Of a DNA stretch of 64,000 bases, positions 25,655-33,709 are shown piece after piece; position 1 is the stretch's first letter, and each line of letters starts with the position of its first letter. The stretch is from contig LNEP01000003.1 in NCBI GenBank assembly GCA_001464125.1, forward strand, positions 248,001 to 312,000. The letters run 5' to 3'. The notes beneath the pieces are model-generated. The model did not search any database. It saw nothing but the letters and a program-made list of their open reading frames with translations, and was not told where the DNA came from. The stretch is from Betaproteobacteria bacterium Ga0077540 (GTDB lineage Bacteria; Pseudomonadota; Gammaproteobacteria; Burkholderiales; Methylophilaceae). The position numbers and the translations under genes were made by a program.

Positions 25655-26173
25655 CTAATACGATTGAATGAATTCTTTGGATTGCACCAACTTCATGCAG
25701 TCCAACACCATCCATTGATTTCCATCTTGATCTTCATACACATCATGGTGCATACAAAATGCATGCTCTAGCGTATCACTCACCTTTTGCATGCCCTCTA
25801 GTTTGCGTAAGCCGACTAACTTTTCCACCAAAAAAGCGACATGTGAGGTCACCTCATCACTCATTAGCAATACGCGCGCACTTGAAGTCACAGTGGTAGC
25901 TGCACCATTCAGCAACTGTCCAATATCATTAATCGCATATAACACACCACGGACATTAGCTACGCCAAGAAACCAAGGCTTAACTAACGGTACTGGATAA
26001 ATTTCCATCAGCGGCAAGGTTTCGCTGATTTCCTGCATATTGACCAGTATGTGCTTACCCGCAATGATTACACCTAAATAACCCGCTGGGGCAGCCGACC
26101 CCACTTTTTTGGCTTCTTCCAGACGCTCAAGAATGTTCGCCTGATAATTTTTTAGGGTACTTTTACCAGCCAT
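25655..26173 (-). CDS. pilI: CheW-like coupling protein PilI
   Basis: 172 residues forming one CheW domain (about 30-165), including LGVIIAGKHILVNM, PVPLVKPWFLGVANVRG and the C-terminal strand. It links PilJ to the ChpA kinase. The ATG at 26171-26173 is 3 bases after the pilH stop, and pilJ begins about 42 bases after its stop. Confidence 0.94.
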   Translation of the reverse strand: MAGKSTLKNYQANILERLEEAKKVGSAAPAGYLGVIIAGKHILVNMQEISETLPLMEIYPVPLVKPWFLGVANVRGVLYAINDIGQLLNGAATTVTSSARVLLMSDEVTSHVAFLVEKLVGLRKLEGMQKVSDTLEHAFCMHHDVYEDQDGNQWMVLDCMKLVQSKEFIQSY

Positions 26174-26176
26174 AAC

Positions 26177-26542
26177 TTAACCAAGTTTGGCGATAATCGC
26201 CATCAGCTCATCTTTATTGATCGGTTTTTGCAAACAACCTTTGGCGCCCATTTTTTCGGCCCAAGCCAAGTCTGTCACTTGCAGCTTACCAGAGGTCAAC
26301 ACAATTGGAATATTGGCAGTTGCTGGATCTTTAGTCAGCGTTCTTGCTGCTTGAAAACCGGTAATGCCCGTCATAATAATGTCCATCACGATTAAATCTG
26401 GTGCAAGACCAGCTGCTTTTTCAACGCAAGCCTCTCCGCTCTCTAACGCTTGCACCTCAAAATTACCGGCCTCCAGCATTTCTGTAAGATAAAAGCGGTC
26501 TGTTGCCGAATCATCCACAACTAATATTTTTTGTATTGCCAT
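26177..26542 (-). CDS. pilH: Response regulator PilH
   Basis: 121-residue receiver domain with acidic pair VVDDSATDRF (Asp9-10), phospho-acceptor Asp in LIVMDIIMTGITG (about residue 54), and Lys in CLQKPINKDEL. In Pseudomonas, PilH acts with PilG to set the direction and level of pilus motor activity and the phosphate balance of ChpA. An AAGGA ribosome site lies 8 bases before the ATG. Order and spacing (17 bases after pilG, 3 bases before pilI) support the name. Confidence 0.93.
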   Translation of the reverse strand: MAIQKILVVDDSATDRFYLTEMLEAGNFEVQALESGEACVEKAAGLAPDLIVMDIIMTGITGFQAARTLTKDPATANIPIVLTSGKLQVTDLAWAEKMGAKGCLQKPINKDELMAIIAKLG

Positions 26543-26559
26543 CGTTGTATCCTTATTAT

Positions 26560-26946
26560 TTAAATTTTCACGTACTCATTCACCGCAGCCACCAGTGTCT
26601 CTTGCGTAAATGGCTTAGTGAGATACTCATCAGAGCCCGCCATACGACCACGGGCACGGTCAAACAAACCATCTTTACTGGATAGCATAATGACAGGGGT
26701 GGATTTAAATCGATCATTGCGTTTAATTAGGCTACAGGTTTGATAACCATCTAACCTTGGCATCATGATATCGATAAAGATAATTTGTGGGTGCTGATCT
26801 GCAATTTTAGAAAGTGCATCAAAGCCATCTACTGCCAAGATAACTGCATATCCCGCATTTTTGAGAAAAATTTCGGCACTGCGACGAATGGTGTTGCTGT
26901 CATCAATTACCATGACTTTTACAGCTGCTGTATCACCGTTGGACAA
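26560..26946 (-). CDS. pilG: Response regulator PilG
   Basis: 128-residue receiver domain: VIDDSNTIRRSAEIFLKNAGY, phospho-acceptor Asp in IFIDIMMPRLDGYQTC (about residue 58), VIMLSSKDG and LTKPFTQE are all typical of PilG. It would drive pilus extension when phosphorylated by ChpA. The start is TTG (26944-26946): an AGGAG site at 26956-26960 fits it, while the first in-frame ATG (codon 12) would remove the first beta-strand. It is the first gene of pilG-H-I-J-chpA. Confidence 0.93.
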   Translation of the reverse strand: MSNGDTAAVKVMVIDDSNTIRRSAEIFLKNAGYAVILAVDGFDALSKIADQHPQIIFIDIMMPRLDGYQTCSLIKRNDRFKSTPVIMLSSKDGLFDRARGRMAGSDEYLTKPFTQETLVAAVNEYVKI

Positions 26947-26955
26947 TTAATTGCG

Positions 26956-26960
26956 CTCCT
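26956..26960 (-). promoter_or_regulatory. Ribosome binding site for the TTG start of pilG
   Basis: AGGAG on the minus strand, 9 bases upstream of TTG 26944-26946. It supports this rare start codon for the first gene of the pil-chp operon. Confidence 0.55.
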
Positions 26961-27179
26961 ATGTTGTACGTTGTTTACCTGTCAACTCTTATAAGGTTTT
27001 TGTATTGGTTAACTTTAAAATCCGGTAACAATCCTTTACATTTGTAGAAAAATATTACATTATCTAAACAGAAATGCAACACTTAGCTTACATTTGTGAT
27101 AAAACACTTTAACATTTAATGCTAAAAATGGGTAATTTAGATACATTCCTCTAGTTATATTTTTTAAGGGCTGCAATCA

Positions 27180-28340
27180 ATGTTAATCAGACAAGAATCT
27201 GTAGATGCCAAAGGCACAATTAAAGATTTACCTGCAACATCACCTTTGCCAACCGCCAATTTAGTACTTGCCTTTTCATCAGTGAAAAGGTTTTCGGAAG
27301 GTAAATTGCAAGCATTCTTAAAAGCACGTTATCCAACCGCACAAGTCATCGGCTGTACCACATCAGGTGAAATTAATGCCAATGGTGTATTTGACGACAG
27401 CATCCAAATCACCGCAATTATGTGGGAAAAAGTATTGCAACGGGTTGCGCAAACCAAAATGTCTGGCATGCAAAACTCATTTGAAACCGCAGCATTATTA
27501 GGCAAACAACTCAAAGCAGATACTTTGAAAGCACTCTTAGTGATTTCAGATGGTTTAAATGTGAATGGCTCCGAACTTTTGAAAGGATTTCAAAGTGTAC
27601 TGGGCGAAATTCCTATTATCGGCGGCTTAGCTGGCGATGGTGGCGCGTTTGTGAAAACCCTCCAGTTGTTTAATGATACCGTATCAGACGGGATGATTAT
27701 TGCAGTAGGCTTATACGGCGATTCATTGATTGTCTCCAGTGGTGCGTTAGGTGGCTGGAAACCTTATGGCCCGCCGCGCAAAATTACCAAATCAGAGAAG
27801 AACGTGGTCTATGAGATGGATGGCAAACCTGCCCTTCCACTTTATCGTATGTACATTGGTGAAGCTTTCTCCAAAGGCTTACCAGGCACTGGCCTTAAGT
27901 TTCCACTTGCGATTATCGAAGAAGGTAAACGTGATGTAGAAAAAATCCGCACCTTGTTGGCTGTTAACGCAGACGACAACAGCCTGACTTTTGCTGGGAA
28001 CGTGGAGGAAGGGGAAACTGTACGTTTGTGCCAAACCAATCACGACCGTCTGGTAGAAGGTGCAGGCGGTGCAGCTGAGTTGGTGATGGATGGTTTGGGT
28101 GAAAACAAAACCAATCAAACAGGTCTAGCGTTGTGTGTCAGTTGTGTTGGTCGCAAAGGGGTAATGGCTGATTTAGTCGCAGATGAAGTGAAACAAGTTC
28201 AGCAAATCCTAGGTGCAAAAACCAACATCACGGGCTTTTACTCCTACGGTGAGTTAGCCCCGCGCCCCAATACATCGGACAGCGTATTGCATAACCAAAC
28301 TATGACGATTGGCTATTTGAGCGAGAACGTACTCGCTTAA
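27180..28340 (+). CDS. FIST-domain sensory protein
   Basis: 386 residues with an N-terminal FIST_N domain (about 25-215; QVIGCTTSGEINANGVFDDSI and GGLAGDGGAF) and a FIST_C domain (about 220-370; TGFYSYGELAPRP near the end). FIST is a small-ligand sensing domain often linked to signal-transduction proteins; the ligand is thought to be an amino acid, but this is not established for this protein. It has no membrane segment or output domain. It diverges from pilG across a 233-base region, which suggests shared regulation with the Pil-Chp system or a role as its cytoplasmic sensor (inference). A strong terminator follows. Confidence 0.85.
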   Translation: MLIRQESVDAKGTIKDLPATSPLPTANLVLAFSSVKRFSEGKLQAFLKARYPTAQVIGCTTSGEINANGVFDDSIQITAIMWEKVLQRVAQTKMSGMQNSFETAALLGKQLKADTLKALLVISDGLNVNGSELLKGFQSVLGEIPIIGGLAGDGGAFVKTLQLFNDTVSDGMIIAVGLYGDSLIVSSGALGGWKPYGPPRKITKSEKNVVYEMDGKPALPLYRMYIGEAFSKGLPGTGLKFPLAIIEEGKRDVEKIRTLLAVNADDNSLTFAGNVEEGETVRLCQTNHDRLVEGAGGAAELVMDGLGENKTNQTGLALCVSCVGRKGVMADLVADEVKQVQQILGAKTNITGFYSYGELAPRPNTSDSVLHNQTMTIGYLSENVLA

Positions 28341-28447: not shown

Positions 28448-28951
28448 ATGCCCAACGCTGTGACTTTGATGGGAAGCCCTGTTCTCATCGAGGGCGTGTT
28501 ACCCAAAGTGGGAGAACATATCCCAGAATTTACGCTGGTAGATAAAAATCTAGAAGACGTCAATTTAGATAACTTTGCTGGCAAACGCAAAGTACTTAAT
28601 ATTTTTCCGAGTATCGACACCCCAACCTGCGCAAGCTCGGTGAGAAGATTTAACCAGTTAGCCAGCGGCATGAAAAATACCGTGGTGCTCAATATTTCCG
28701 GAGACTTACCATTTGCACAACAACGGTTCTGTGCAGCAGAAGGCTTGGATCAGGTAGTGAATTTATCGAGCTTGCGTGGCCGTGACATGTTTAAAAACTA
28801 TGGCGTGCTGATAGTAACAAGTAAGCTGGCTGGTTTGGCTGCTCGCGCAGTGATGATAGCGGATGAAAATAACCTAGTGAAATATGTAGAGTTGGTGAGC
28901 GAAATTGCTGACGAGCCAAACTATCAGGCCGCACTCAGGGCTTTAAAATAA
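28448..28951 (+). CDS. tpx: Thiol peroxidase (Tpx), first copy
   Basis: 167 residues, the usual length for atypical 2-Cys peroxiredoxin Tpx. The peroxidatic Cys61 lies in [12 protein letters not shown] and the resolving Cys95 in QQRFCAAEG; an Arg in the AGLAARAVM segment fits the active-site Arg. It reduces lipid and alkyl hydroperoxides using thioredoxin. It begins just after a terminator, so it has its own promoter in the about 35 bases between. A paralogue follows at 29120. It differs from that copy mainly in the N-terminal third and around [12 protein letters not shown]. Confidence 0.93.
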
Positions 28952-29119: not shown

Positions 29120-29620
29120 ATGGCAACAGTGACACTCAAAGGTGGCCCAGTAGCAATAGGCGGCGACTTGCCTAGCGTAGGTCAAACAGCACCAGACTTT
29201 CAACTAGCAGATGCGAAACGCGTACTGCAATCATTGGGCGCATACGCAGGCAAGCGCAAGGTGTTGAATATATTTCCAAGTATCGACACACCTACCTGTG
29301 CCACCTCAGTGCGTACATTTAATCAAAAAGCCAGCAACATGGACAACACTGTTGTACTTTGTATTTCTGCTGATTTACCGTTTGCCCAGAGTCGTTTTTG
29401 CGGTGCTGAGGGGATTGAGAACGTGGTAACACTCTCTACATTCCGCGACACTGCAAAATTTGCCAAAGATTACGGTGTGCAAATTTTAGATAGCAGTTTA
29501 GCCGGTTTAACTGCGCGTGCAGTGGTGGTGCTTGATGAAAACAACAAAGTCTTGCACAGTGAGTTAGTGAGTGAAATTGCCAACGAACCTAACTACGATG
29601 CGGCACTGGCTGTGCTGTAA
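29120..29620 (+). CDS. tpx: Thiol peroxidase (Tpx), second copy
   Basis: 166 residues. Peroxidatic Cys60 ([12 protein letters not shown]), resolving Cys94 (QSRFCGAEG) and the Arg in AGLTARAVV are intact; an extra Cys81 lies in [11 protein letters not shown]. This copy looks closer to the canonical Tpx sequence than its upstream paralogue. An AGGAG ribosome site precedes the ATG. The 168 bases between the two copies are enough for a separate promoter, so the pair may be regulated differently. A clear terminator ends the unit. Confidence 0.94.
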
Positions 29621-29651: not shown

Positions 29652-29680
29652 AAAAGCCCCGTAGATACGGGGCTTTTTTT
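29652..29680 (+). terminator. Rho-independent terminator after the second tpx
   Basis: GC-rich stem (29652-29663 with 29666-29677, a tight loop when fully paired) followed by a T-tract ending near 29680. The A-rich left side also gives it a T-tract on the minus strand, so it may also serve the convergent MazG-like gene. Confidence 0.9.
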
Positions 29681-29710: not shown

Positions 29711-30085
29711 TCATTCGTAAGCGGTGTATTTAGCATTGCTACCTTTGGCTTTTTCCACGGGGTATTTTTTAGCGTTTAAATCAATTTTTTGATGGGCCGC
29801 AGCAATCAAATCAATATCCAACACTTCTGCAATTCTCAGCAGGTAAACAAAGGTGTCAGCCAGTTCATGACTGACCGCCTCACGCTTTTCAGGAGTGAGC
29901 ACTTGACTGTCGGCTGGCGTGTCCCATTGAAACTGCTCGACCAACTCGGCCGCCTCGACAATCATCGCCATCGCTAAATTTTTGGGCGTATGAAACTGTG
30001 CCCAATCTCGTTCTGCTACAAAGGCGTTAATTCGCGCACGCAGCGCGCGCAAACTATCTTCAGAAGCTGTCATCGCAACATCCAT
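29711..30085 (-). CDS. MazG-like nucleotide pyrophosphohydrolase
   Basis: 124 residues of the all-alpha NTP-PPase superfamily (RS21-C6/dCTPase-like type). Visible metal-binding acidic pattern: EAAELVEQFQW (about 46-56) and ELADTFVYLLRIAEVLDID (about 74-92). Such small proteins hydrolyse (d)NTPs, often modified or non-canonical ones, to monophosphates. The substrate here is unknown. The gene converges on the tpx pair. It begins 28 bases after the stop of the c-di-GMP enzyme gene upstream and may be co-transcribed with it. Start at Met1 or Met5 cannot be decided. Confidence 0.85.
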   Translation of the reverse strand: MDVAMTASEDSLRALRARINAFVAERDWAQFHTPKNLAMAMIVEAAELVEQFQWDTPADSQVLTPEKREAVSHELADTFVYLLRIAEVLDIDLIAAAHQKIDLNAKKYPVEKAKGSNAKYTAYE

Positions 30086-30112: not shown

Positions 30113-32389
30113 TCACACCGTCATCTGCTCTAGCGTTTCCAACATTTTTTCAGCTTCTAACAATACCGCAAATTCGTCCGCGGTGAGTGGCTTGCTAAAA
30201 TAAAAGCCTTGAATTTCATCGCAATCATACGCTTTTAAATAGGCCAATTGCTCCGCGGTTTCCACGCCCTCTGCAATCACTTTAAAGTTTAGGCTGTGGG
30301 ACATTTTAATAATTGCTGTAATAATCGCCGCATCATTAGCATCTGTCTGAATATCACGAATAAAGCTTTTATCAATTTTAATGGTATCAATTGGCAAGCG
30401 TTTTAAATAAGACAAGCTGGAAAAACCGGTGCCAAAGTCATCAATCGATAACCGTACGCCCATGTCACGCAACGAAATAAGATCTTTAATGCCCTCGCTA
30501 TCCCCGTGAATAGCTACCGTTTCGGTGACTTCAAGCTCCAAATAATCTGGGCTTAAGCCGCTGTGCAGCAAGGCTTTGGATACCTGATTCAGGAAATCAG
30601 AATAGCGGATTTCCACCGCGGAAACGTTAATCGCTAACGGAATCGGCCGTAAGCCTTGAGATTGCCATGCTTTGTTCTGACGGCAAGCCTCTGCCAACAC
30701 CCATTGCCCAATCACCCTAATTAATCCAGTTTCTTCAGCGGTTGGAATAAATATATTAGGCGCAATCATTCCATTTTCTGGATGTTGCCAACGAATTAAA
30801 GCTTCAGCGCCCACAATCTTGCCGGTTTTGACTGAAACCTTGGGCTGATACATCAGGATAAACTCATGTTGGGCGGCGGCTTTACGCAAGCGGTTCTCTA
30901 ACGCCACTTGGTCCGCAATTCTTGTACTGAGTTCTTTGGTAAAGAATTGATAGTTATTGCGACCCAGGCCTTTGGCATAGTACATGGCAGCATCTGCATT
31001 ACGCATCAAAATATCGGCAGTATTGCCATCTTCAGGGTAAATAGAGATACCGATACTGGCTGATACTTTCAGCTCATGCGTGCCGATTTGGAAGTCGCCA
31101 TTGGTCGCCGTCAGTAATTTTTGCGCTATTTCTGCTGGCGCCATTGGCCCATCTACCTCAGAGAGCAAAATCACAAACTCATCGCCACCTTGGCGGCTAA
31201 TGGTATCGGTACTGCGGATACAAGCTTGCAATTTTTTGCTGAGGAATTTCAGCAGTTGATCCCCAACTTCATGGCCTAGGGTATCGTTAATTTTCTTAAA
31301 GTGGTCAATATCTAAGTAAAGCAAGGCCACTCGTGTATCTTTGCGTTTGGCTGCATTCAATGCTTGCGTTATCCGATCAGTCAGCAACAAACGGTTGGGT
31401 AAATCAGTTAAGAAATCATGCTCCGCGAGATAAGACATTTTTTCCGCCATCTGCTTGGCACTACTCACATCGTGGAAGACCAATACCACACCTAACATTT
31501 CACCATCTCCACCCTTAATAGGAGCAGCGGAGTCCTCAATCGCAAATTCTTGTCCAGTTTTGGCAATGAGCATAGTGTGATTTGCCAAGCCACACTCCTG
31601 ACCATGTGCCAATACCACATCTACAGGGTTTGCCGCTAATTTGCGCGTACTTTCATTTAATATTCGGAATACCTCAAGCACTGGTTTACCAATCGCATCG
31701 TCTTTGCTCCACCCTGTCATGGTTTCTGCAACAGGGTTGAGATAGGTGACATTGGAGTTCATATCGGTTGTAATCACCCCATCGCCAATGGACTCCAATG
31801 TTACTAGCGCTTGCTTCTTCTCTCTAAATAAGGCTTGTTCGGTCTCTTTTCTGCGCTCAATTTCTTTGAGTAATTCACCGTTAGCATCGGTTAATTCTTG
31901 CGTGCGTTGCTGCACAATGGCTTCAAGATTGTTGTTTAACTCCGCCAACTGTGATTCGGCCAGTAAGCGTTGTTTAATTTCATATTGCAGTTGATCAATG
32001 TTTTTTTGTAATTGCTCGGTGCTGGTCATGGTGAGCGCAATTGGCATCAGCCGCCATAACATGACTGCGGTTAGCGCAGAGGCCATTGCGGTAATGCCTT
32101 TAATGCTGGCATCTACCCAATAAGCGGGCATCCAGATAGTGACGATTGAAACCAGATGCGTCATGCCACAAGCAAAAATAAACACCGAAAACATAACGAA
32201 TATCCAATTAAACTTGATATCCGTGCGTTTTTTTACCAGATATAACAGGGCTAGAGGAATGGTGAAATATGAGAGTGCAATCACACTATCAGACACTACA
32301 TAAAGCCAGAGTAGCACCGGCGTCCACAAATAACAGTGCCCATGTGGCATGAACTCGTTTGGTATGAGTAACCCTAAAAGACTTTCCAC
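30113..32389 (-). CDS. Ethylene-receptor-like membrane sensor fused to PAS-GGDEF-EAL
   Basis: 758 residues. Residues 1-115 hold three or four membrane segments that line up with the ethylene-binding domain of plant ETR1: Asp34, Tyr41, Pro45, Ile71, Cys74 and His78 match ETR1 Asp25, Tyr32, Pro36, Ile62, Cys65 and His69 at one constant offset. Cys and His hold copper in ETR1. Then come a coiled coil (about 120-190), PAS (about 193-310), GGDEF (about 315-485; GGDEF at 401-405 and an RSTD inhibitory site at 392-395) and EAL (about 495-745; GAEALIRW, DDFGTGFSSLSYL, AEGVET). Both catalytic domains look intact, so it can probably make or degrade c-di-GMP. GTG start with a GGAG site 7 bases upstream. 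Ligand identity (ethylene or another copper-bound small molecule) is inferred. Confidence 0.9.
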   Translation of the reverse strand: MESLLGLLIPNEFMPHGHCYLWTPVLLWLYVVSDSVIALSYFTIPLALLYLVKKRTDIKFNWIFVMFSVFIFACGMTHLVSIVTIWMPAYWVDASIKGITAMASALTAVMLWRLMPIALTMTSTEQLQKNIDQLQYEIKQRLLAESQLAELNNNLEAIVQQRTQELTDANGELLKEIERRKETEQALFREKKQALVTLESIGDGVITTDMNSNVTYLNPVAETMTGWSKDDAIGKPVLEVFRILNESTRKLAANPVDVVLAHGQECGLANHTMLIAKTGQEFAIEDSAAPIKGGDGEMLGVVLVFHDVSSAKQMAEKMSYLAEHDFLTDLPNRLLLTDRITQALNAAKRKDTRVALLYLDIDHFKKINDTLGHEVGDQLLKFLSKKLQACIRSTDTISRQGGDEFVILLSEVDGPMAPAEIAQKLLTATNGDFQIGTHELKVSASIGISIYPEDGNTADILMRNADAAMYYAKGLGRNNYQFFTKELSTRIADQVALENRLRKAAAQHEFILMYQPKVSVKTGKIVGAEALIRWQHPENGMIAPNIFIPTAEETGLIRVIGQWVLAEACRQNKAWQSQGLRPIPLAINVSAVEIRYSDFLNQVSKALLHSGLSPDYLELEVTETVAIHGDSEGIKDLISLRDMGVRLSIDDFGTGFSSLSYLKRLPIDTIKIDKSFIRDIQTDANDAAIITAIIKMSHSLNFKVIAEGVETAEQLAYLKAYDCDEIQGFYFSKPLTADEFAVLLEAEKMLETLEQMTV

Positions 32390-32569: not shown

Positions 32570-33709
32570 TTATTTACGGTTTGAGCCGGCCACCATTTTA
32601 ATCTCAAACAAGCGGCACTCTAGTGGGCCGTTAAACAATGGCGTGCGTTTACTTGGTGTTAAACGCATGAGCTTGGGTAAACGTAAATCATTAGTGAGGA
32701 AATAAGTATTCCATCCTGAGAATTTTCGTTTTAAGATTTCGCTCATTTTCGGGTATAGCAAGGCCAACTCTTCATCCTCGCCAATGCGCACACCATAGGG
32801 CGGATTAGCCACCATGACGCCTTCTTCTGCTGGCGGCACTAAATCTGTGAAATTCACTTGTGAGATTTGTGCTGTTTCCAATAAACCAGCTTCAGTCAGG
32901 TTTTGCTTGGTCACGCGCACTGCGCGCAAATCCATATCACTGCCGTATAGCTTTTGAAACGTCGCTGGTTTGACAGCTTTGAGCGCAGCATTTTTAATTT
33001 TTTTCCAAGTATCTGATTCAAAATTTTTGAGCTTTTCAAAACCAAAATTGCGGTGCAGACCAGGTGCAATATTCAGCGCCATCATGGCGGCTTCTAGCAA
33101 AAATGTGCCGCTACCACACATGGGGTCCAGCAAAGCTTGCCCTGGTTTCCAGCCGGCTAATTGTAAGATACCCGCTGCTAGGTTCTCACGCAAAGGCGCT
33201 TCGATACTGGCTTTACGATTGCCGCGTTGATACAAGGCATTACCAGAAGTATCCACATAATATTGATAGCTATCTGCCGTTAAATAGGCATGCACCCGCA
33301 CAGCTGGTGTTTTGGTATCAATATAGGGACGCGCATTCACCACTTGACGGAATTTATCGCAGACCGCATCTTTGATTTTAAGGGTGGCGAATTCTAAGCT
33401 CTTGAGAGGACACTTCACACCGGTGACTTTCACCATGAAATCATGCTTTACATCAAACCAATTAGGCCAGTTGATTTTATAAGCTGCCTGATACAAATCA
33501 TCTTCGGTCGCGTATTTACCACGCCCTACTTGTACCAAAATGCGTGTGGCAATACGGGAGTATAAATTGGCGTGATAACAGACTGACAGCTCACCACTAA
33601 AACTCACCCCGCCATCGGTGGGCTTGATATCGCGCGCGCCACTGGTTTGTAATTCGTTGACCAACAACGCTTCAAGGCCTCTGGGGCAAGTGGCAAAATA
33701 TTGATTCAT
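32570..33709 (-). CDS. rlmL: THUMP-domain 23S rRNA guanine methyltransferase, RlmL N-terminal type
   Basis: 379 residues, equal to the N-terminal half of the E. coli bifunctional RlmKL (m2G2445) without the RlmK half. THUMP domain (about 40-155), SAM-binding motif LLDPMCGSGTFLLEAA (about 195-210) and catalytic NPPYG (about 304-308) are clear. It methylates guanine N2 in 23S rRNA by family assignment; the exact site is inferred. It starts 9 bases after the spermidine-synthase-like gene and is probably the last gene of that operon. Confidence 0.88.
   Translation of the reverse strand: MNQYFATCPRGLEALLVNELQTSGARDIKPTDGGVSFSGELSVCYHANLYSRIATRILVQVGRGKYATEDDLYQAAYKINWPNWFDVKHDFMVKVTGVKCPLKSLEFATLKIKDAVCDKFRQVVNARPYIDTKTPAVRVHAYLTADSYQYYVDTSGNALYQRGNRKASIEAPLRENLAAGILQLAGWKPGQALLDPMCGSGTFLLEAAMMALNIAPGLHRNFGFEKLKNFESDTWKKIKNAALKAVKPATFQKLYGSDMDLRAVRVTKQNLTEAGLLETAQISQVNFTDLVPPAEEGVMVANPPYGVRIGEDEELALLYPKMSEILKRKFSGWNTYFLTNDLRLPKLMRLTPSKRTPLFNGPLECRLFEIKMVAGSNRK

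Follow-up and report, generated by a model that had tools for sequence, protein, structure and literature searches.

An ethylene-receptor-type sensor joined to c-di-GMP output domains in Methylophilus and in other users of methanol and methane

Homologues of the plant ethylene receptors are already known from bacteria. Judged by its domains, the protein described here is a real member of that family with a non-kinase, c-di-GMP output. It is encoded in a stretch of 64,000 nucleotides (the window) from Betaproteobacteria bacterium Ga0077540, of the family Methylophilaceae. The gene lies on the minus strand at 30113-32389, was called as an open reading frame of 758 aa with a GTG start, and has the string GGGAG six bases 5' of that start. 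From sequence it is established that the protein belongs to the ethylene-receptor sensor family and that its GGDEF and EAL c-di-GMP domains are intact. The best reading, to which we give a probability of roughly 0.55, is that it would be a Cu(I)-dependent receptor for ethylene, or for an alkene more generally, that sets c-di-GMP directly.

The Pfam ETR1_N model (PF25487) matches residues 26-120 (32030-32314, minus strand, as are all features of the gene) with 123.6 bits against a cut-off of 27 (E 3.9e-36). The initial annotation had called this an ethylene-receptor-like sensor and proposed a profile search, and that search bears it out. A whole-genome profile search gave one ETR1_N match in the window's genome and none in 14 control genomes, so the match is far above chance. 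Pfam and a motif check also agree with the earlier claim that the sensor is followed by PAS, an intact GGDEF with an RxxD site and an intact EAL. The PAS domain spans residues 198-308 (31466-31798), the GGDEF domain residues 322-479 (30953-31426) and the EAL domain residues 499-734 (30188-30895). Five residues separate the GGDEF motif at 401 from the inhibitory I-site, RSTD, at residues 392-395 (31205-31216). The EAL set is complete (EALIRW at 529, INVS at 587, ELEVTE at 618, DDFGTG at 650, IKIDKSF at 670, AEGVE at 706 and QGFYFSKP at 727); the motif set used for the catalytic check of both domains was our own choice. HisKA and HATPase were absent from the 758-aa protein in the Pfam search, and GGDEF-EAL stands in place of a kinase output. 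The PDB was matched by sequence in the output half only, by 5xgb (residues 180-736) and 4rnh (residues 314-745). These two proteins, PA0861 and a "Motility regulator" that we take to be MorA, are like the window protein in the GGDEF-EAL half and unlike it in the sensor. The window's own genome (2.33 Mb, 89% complete) has 34 GGDEF-domain matches, which show a rich and dense c-di-GMP network.

All seven ETR1 essential residues are found in the sensor at a constant offset of +9: D34, Y41, I44, P45, I71, C74 and H78. Of these, Y41 is the counterpart of ETR1 Y32, likewise essential for ethylene binding. The initial annotation was right about the residues and the offset but counted six rather than seven. 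In AlphaFold2, run as a monomer with 117 window and locus sequences as input and read as secondary structure and pLDDT, the sensor is a three-helix model with a mean pLDDT of 90.6 and ten-residue means of 93-98 from residue 31 onward. The predicted helices are 24-54 (TM1, 32228-32320, with D34, Y41, I44 and P45), 61-86 (TM2, 32132-32209, with I71, C74 and H78, the copper/ethylene site by homology) and 90-120 (TM3, 32030-32122), and another helix is predicted at 124-139. That Cys74 and His78 should fail to face each other had been named beforehand as evidence against the ethylene reading. The model does not show this; at the level of secondary structure, the two lie one turn apart on the confidently predicted helix 2, whose placement in the membrane is by homology. 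Ideal-helix arithmetic (100 degrees per residue) puts D34, Y41 and P45 on one face of helix 1 and I71, C74 and H78 on one face of helix 2. No PDB chain matched residues 1-132 by sequence at E up to 5, and no PDB fold matched the sensor model at E <=0.001, so the sensor has no experimental structural anchor of its own. PMC6586836 gives D25, I35, P36, I62, C65 and H69 of ETR1 as essential for ethylene binding and ties C65 and H69 to copper binding.

Most bacterial members carry a second conserved element, PHGxCxxW, just before helix 1 and outside the Pfam model. In the window protein it reads PHGHCYLW (residues 15-22, 32324-32347), and the initial annotation had not mentioned it. Of the 176 homologues found by domain search, 148 retain H16 and 153 retain C19. 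The H16/C19 pair and the copper pair C74/H78 are both intact in 144 of these proteins and both impaired in 20, with H16/C19 alone impaired in 11 and C74/H78 alone in 1 (Fisher p 1.5e-17). Put another way, H16/C19 is impaired in 20 of the 21 proteins that have lost the copper Cys/His. Thinned to 92 clusters, the counts are 64 both intact, 18 both impaired, 9 N-terminal only and 1 helix-2 only (p 1.3e-11). When the 34 conserved columns (31 after thinning) are ordered by their association with the copper pair, H16 and C19 come second and third; the first, I71, is itself an ethylene residue near C74. In its co-impairment and high rank PHGxC thus resembles a component of the metal site or of the path that loads it. 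We regard PHGHCYLW as a candidate part of the metal site, a candidate copper-loading site or a candidate dimer cysteine. Cyanobacterial receptors have a single N-terminal Cys for which a dimer disulphide has been suggested (PMC6682694).

Part of this signal is due to decay of the domain in general. Degenerate domains decay throughout and their N-termini align poorly, which qualifies the co-loss of PHGxC. When corrected for the tree, co-loss comes down to one independent pair on supported branches, or 15 on all branches. In random pairings the co-change with the copper pair was 0.9 for H16/C19 versus 0.5-0.7 for six of eight controls. The PHGxC region is modelled with low confidence (mean pLDDT 54 over residues 11-20). 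Our counts rest on the 176 domain-search hits and exclude 80 loci found by pattern. Two further alignments, A1 (27 of 45 proteins, the window's included) and A2 (117 rows), were selected in favour of intact motifs, and columns that are invariant in them therefore carry no evidential weight.

The c-di-GMP output has a clear lineage pattern. Output classes were assigned to 256 proteins with domain models built from Pfam-located seeds, and a c-di-GMP output means GGDEF with or without EAL. Among the 176 domain-search hits it is found in 22 of 30 Methylophilaceae proteins, 35 of 60 from the Methylococcales, 6 of 33 from cyanobacteria and none of 53 from other Pseudomonadota. Most of the remainder are histidine kinases; in three the sequence ends before an output domain is reached. 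Methanol and methane users thus have this output in 57/90 proteins and the others in 6/86, with p 7e-16 in a hand-drawn sample that counts relatives as independent. The 60 from the Methylococcales and the 33 from cyanobacteria were hand-picked from longer lists and include low-scoring ones on purpose. Five of the 176 proteins run off the end of their stretch, three of which (G1049, G756 and G799) reach no output and were scored as non-c-di-GMP; G448, which fell below the cut-off, and fragmentary matches were left out. Within this sample, most proteins of methanol and methane users have a c-di-GMP output, which is rare elsewhere. The 80 named loci, which come from a biased pattern that requires the copper Cys and His, include 21 with c-di-GMP output. 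These come from Methylovorus, Novimethylophilus, Paucimonas, Methyloglobulus, Methylobacter, Methylomonas, Methylovulum and Chitinimonas, as well as from two Deltaproteobacteria and one Xenococcaceae cyanobacterium. Across all 84 GGDEF-bearing ETR1_N proteins the GGDEF motif is kept in 82 and a PAS domain is present in 79.

Outputs have been swapped repeatedly among ETR1_N proteins. The sensor tree was built by a quick method from 230 of the 256 rows (26 degenerate ones removed) and 125 columns and is weakly resolved; about 20-21 changes of output class fall on it, at least six of them forced by starred branches. A single origin of the c-di-GMP form was rejected as the simplest account on these counts. 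The helix-2 Cys and the PHGxC Cys are both lost in L033 (9468-12038), L092, L350 and L373, of which L033 and L350 retain GGDEF-EAL and L092 and L373 bear histidine kinase modules. These four are probably natural variants whose ligand has changed or been lost. One ETR1_N protein, at L341 (G1049), has an open frame of 2054 aa with 11 PAS matches in the stretch examined.

The family is unevenly spread. Genomes with ETR1_N number 9 of 22 in Methylophilus, 32 of 187 in the Methylophilaceae and 29 of 398 in a phylum-wide sample of Pseudomonadota that includes the window's own genome. In the class to which G344 belongs (taken to be Alphaproteobacteria) they number 23 of 337, and in the cyanobacteria, the phylum of the L167 genome, 45 of 146. 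The order of the L159 genome, taken to be Methylococcales, has it in 74 of 151. The gene pmoA (PF02461) occurs in 122 of those 151 genomes, and ETR1_N accompanies it in 68 of 122 versus 6 of the 29 that lack it (Fisher p 0.0008, with related genomes counted as independent and genome size and completeness uncontrolled). We know of no methane oxidation in the Methylophilaceae, so an argument from poisoning does not apply to them directly. Ethylene is reported to be poisonous to methanotrophs in PMC11507031, the main text of which does not contain the phrase "ethylene receptor".

Within Methylophilus the gene comes and goes at one fixed site. It is bordered in the window by a MazG-like gene 27 bases downstream (29711-30085, minus) and an RlmL-like rRNA methyltransferase gene on the other side (32570-33709, minus). 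The rlmL-like neighbour was located in 20 of the 22 genomes; the receptor gene stands between the two neighbours in 9 of these, and in the other 11 the neighbours abut in a clean empty site. At least five presence/absence changes are needed on the rlmL neighbour-gene tree. Because there is one fixed site, the simpler reading is that the gene is ancestral in Methylophilus and was lost repeatedly, and a possible alternative is that it was gained by recombination at the rlmL/mazG site. Two of the nine copies are broken: in G002 an in-frame stop follows 341 codons, with similarity resuming past it, and in G021 a frameshift splits the gene close to the N-terminus. The 11 empty sites and two broken copies imply that the receptor is dispensable in many niches.

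The window copy itself is intact and strongly constrained. The Methylophilus orthologues are 66-89% identical to it. Against the two closest (G011 and G016) dN/dS is about 0.03 with dS near saturation, and against the other four dS is mostly beyond estimation. Of five segments of the protein, the sensor has the lowest dN in three of the six comparisons (G011, G014 and G008), ties with PAS for lowest against G016, and ranks second lowest in the comparisons with G019 and G010.

Further along the window, a terminator-like stem of 11 pairs lies 3' of the MazG-like gene (29652-29677, minus), known from a pattern scan that gave six such sites in the region versus a shuffled mean of 3.8. Two redoxin genes lie in tandem (28448-28951 and 29120-29620) beside FIST and CheY/CheW-like genes, an arrangement kept in three other Methylophilus stretches (L022, L025 and L027). 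About 3 kb from the receptor gene, 25655-28340 holds two single-domain response regulators and a CheW-like gene, which we take to be PilG/PilH/PilI-like, near a divergent FIST-domain gene.

Copper genes are not regular companions of these receptors. The neighbourhood survey took in 911 neighbour ORFs from a set of 244 loci reduced to 194, and for many of these the upstream sequence covered is only about 500 bases; its clusters were named by eye except where Pfam is cited. Forty-six clusters recur in two or more loci; the largest, of signalling proteins, is found at 76 loci and is the sole one in more than six. SCO1/SenC genes adjoin ETR1_N genes at 2 of the 194 loci, in genomes of different families, and a general link of ETR1_N to copper genes was rejected on that count. 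At L395 the copper-chaperone gene (48-389, E 6e-27) is on the same strand, 40 bases before a stand-alone ETR1_N gene, and at L085 (7401-8039, E 9e-26) it is on the same strand about 175 bases before an ETR1_N kinase gene. Some receptors are split, with ETR1_N alone or with PAS and no catalytic domain (L392:423-2886, L395:429-2566, L102 from 5980 onwards, L104 from 5989 onwards, and L387). A same-strand histidine kinase with a hydrophobic N-terminus follows, at most about 30 bases off or overlapping, which suggests a separate ethylene-binding subunit that may act on a partner kinase.

The known receptors share the sensor and differ in the output. Arabidopsis ETR1 has the same sensor fold and essential residues, but it sits in the plant ER membrane, has GAF, histidine kinase and receiver domains and two N-terminal cysteines, and to our knowledge has no PHGxC motif. 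AzoEtr1 of the pseudomonadote Azospirillum brasilense has an N-terminal three-helix ethylene-binding domain followed by PAS and all seven residues, its C75 being the C74 of the window protein; it signals through a histidine kinase and a response regulator encoded next to it, whereas the window protein carries GGDEF-EAL in its own chain. AzoEtr1 is reported to bind ethylene, biofilm in its host is lowered by ethylene, and the D35A and C75A variants gave no rescue (PMC11819568). The cyanobacterial receptors SynEtr1 (Slr1212), which binds ethylene, and GeiEtr1/2 likewise have the seven-residue domain but a histidine kinase output, with light sensing as well in SynEtr1 (PMC6682694). The effect of ethylene on biofilm is reported as up in Synechocystis and down in Azospirillum (PMC11819568). 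A non-exhaustive literature search gave, among the matches listed, neither an ETR1-type sensor with GGDEF or EAL nor an ethylene receptor in methylotrophs or methanotrophs. The architecture may already be in print, since a review reports a wide range of outputs for bacterial ethylene receptors, including domains absent from plants (PMC7700396).

We believe the evidence is best served by a one-component, ethylene-type receptor of the inner membrane. The proposal in the initial annotation that c-di-GMP may be adjusted to ethylene or a similar molecule is borne out in part. A sensor dimer would hold Cu(I) at C74 and H78, loaded from the periplasmic side, a step that the bacterial PHGxC motif would assist. 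A small alkene, whether ethylene or another, would reach the copper from the membrane and bind there, and the resulting helix shift would travel via the linker (121-196) through PAS to GGDEF-EAL. The balance of cyclase and phosphodiesterase would be altered, and with it attachment or motility, in either direction. For Methylophilus and methane oxidisers, ethylene would likely signal plant tissue or an alkene that poisons the methane-oxidising community. The Pfam match, the seven residues, the predicted helices, the slow-evolving sensor and the intact GGDEF and EAL all argue for this receptor, as do ethylene binding and the biofilm effect in AzoEtr1, the enrichment of c-di-GMP output in C-1 users and the association of ETR1_N with pmoA. 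Against it stand the 11 Methylophilus genomes that lack the gene and the two broken copies, the scarcity of SCO1/SenC genes at ETR1_N loci, the PAS domain between sensor and output, which could be the main input, and, for PHGxC, the low pLDDT and the one usable pair in the tree-corrected test.

The sensor could instead bind Cu(I) with copper or its redox state as the signal, so that ethylene is incidental and c-di-GMP is tuned to copper supply. The kept copper-site residues and the joint impairment of PHGxC fit this idea, and so do the strong enrichment in methanotrophs, which have a copper enzyme in their particulate methane monooxygenase, and the SCO1/SenC genes directly upstream in two unrelated loci. 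We still think it unlikely: two loci in 194 do not make copper genes a regular neighbour, the Ile, Pro and Tyr essential for ethylene are likewise kept in most members, and the domain occurs outside methanotrophs too. It is also improbable, in our opinion, that the sensor is a membrane anchor, or responds to another ligand such as light, redox or a quinone, and leaves PAS as the real input to GGDEF-EAL. The near-constant presence of PAS beside GGDEF and the retention of GGDEF-EAL despite lost copper residues, as in L033 (PIGAS, with Tyr replacing the copper Cys), speak for that arrangement, but the window protein keeps its ethylene residues intact in one of its slowest-evolving parts, and there are stand-alone ETR1_N genes, of 138-140 aa, that lack PAS. 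The repeated presence/absence changes and the stop and frameshift in G002 and G021 would also suit an accessory sensor that is redundant or decaying and now does little in Methylophilus; we consider this highly improbable, since the window copy is intact and has a dN/dS of about 0.03 when compared with its two closest relatives.

If ethylene is bound, a single chain would convert a plant hormone and soil gas to c-di-GMP with no phosphorelay, and the protein would be a simple system in which to follow the signal from bound ethylene. PHGxC gives a specific clue to the way in which copper may be taken up or held by receptors in bacteria, and the lineage pattern of c-di-GMP output yields a clear, testable prediction. 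Methane oxidation is reported to suffer from inhibition by ethylene, and the distribution of these proteins is a reason to test ethylene sensing in methanotrophs. A bolder idea, possible if doubtful, is a widespread ethylene alarm in methane and methanol users: a Cu(I)-dependent receptor, with PHGxC as a second His/Cys element specific to bacteria, would turn ambient ethylene, from which pMMO makes toxic epoxyethane, directly into a c-di-GMP change and so place the attachment of methane oxidisers under the control of plant and soil ethylene. In Methylophilus, the sensor would more likely serve in contact with plants or in living next to methanotrophs.
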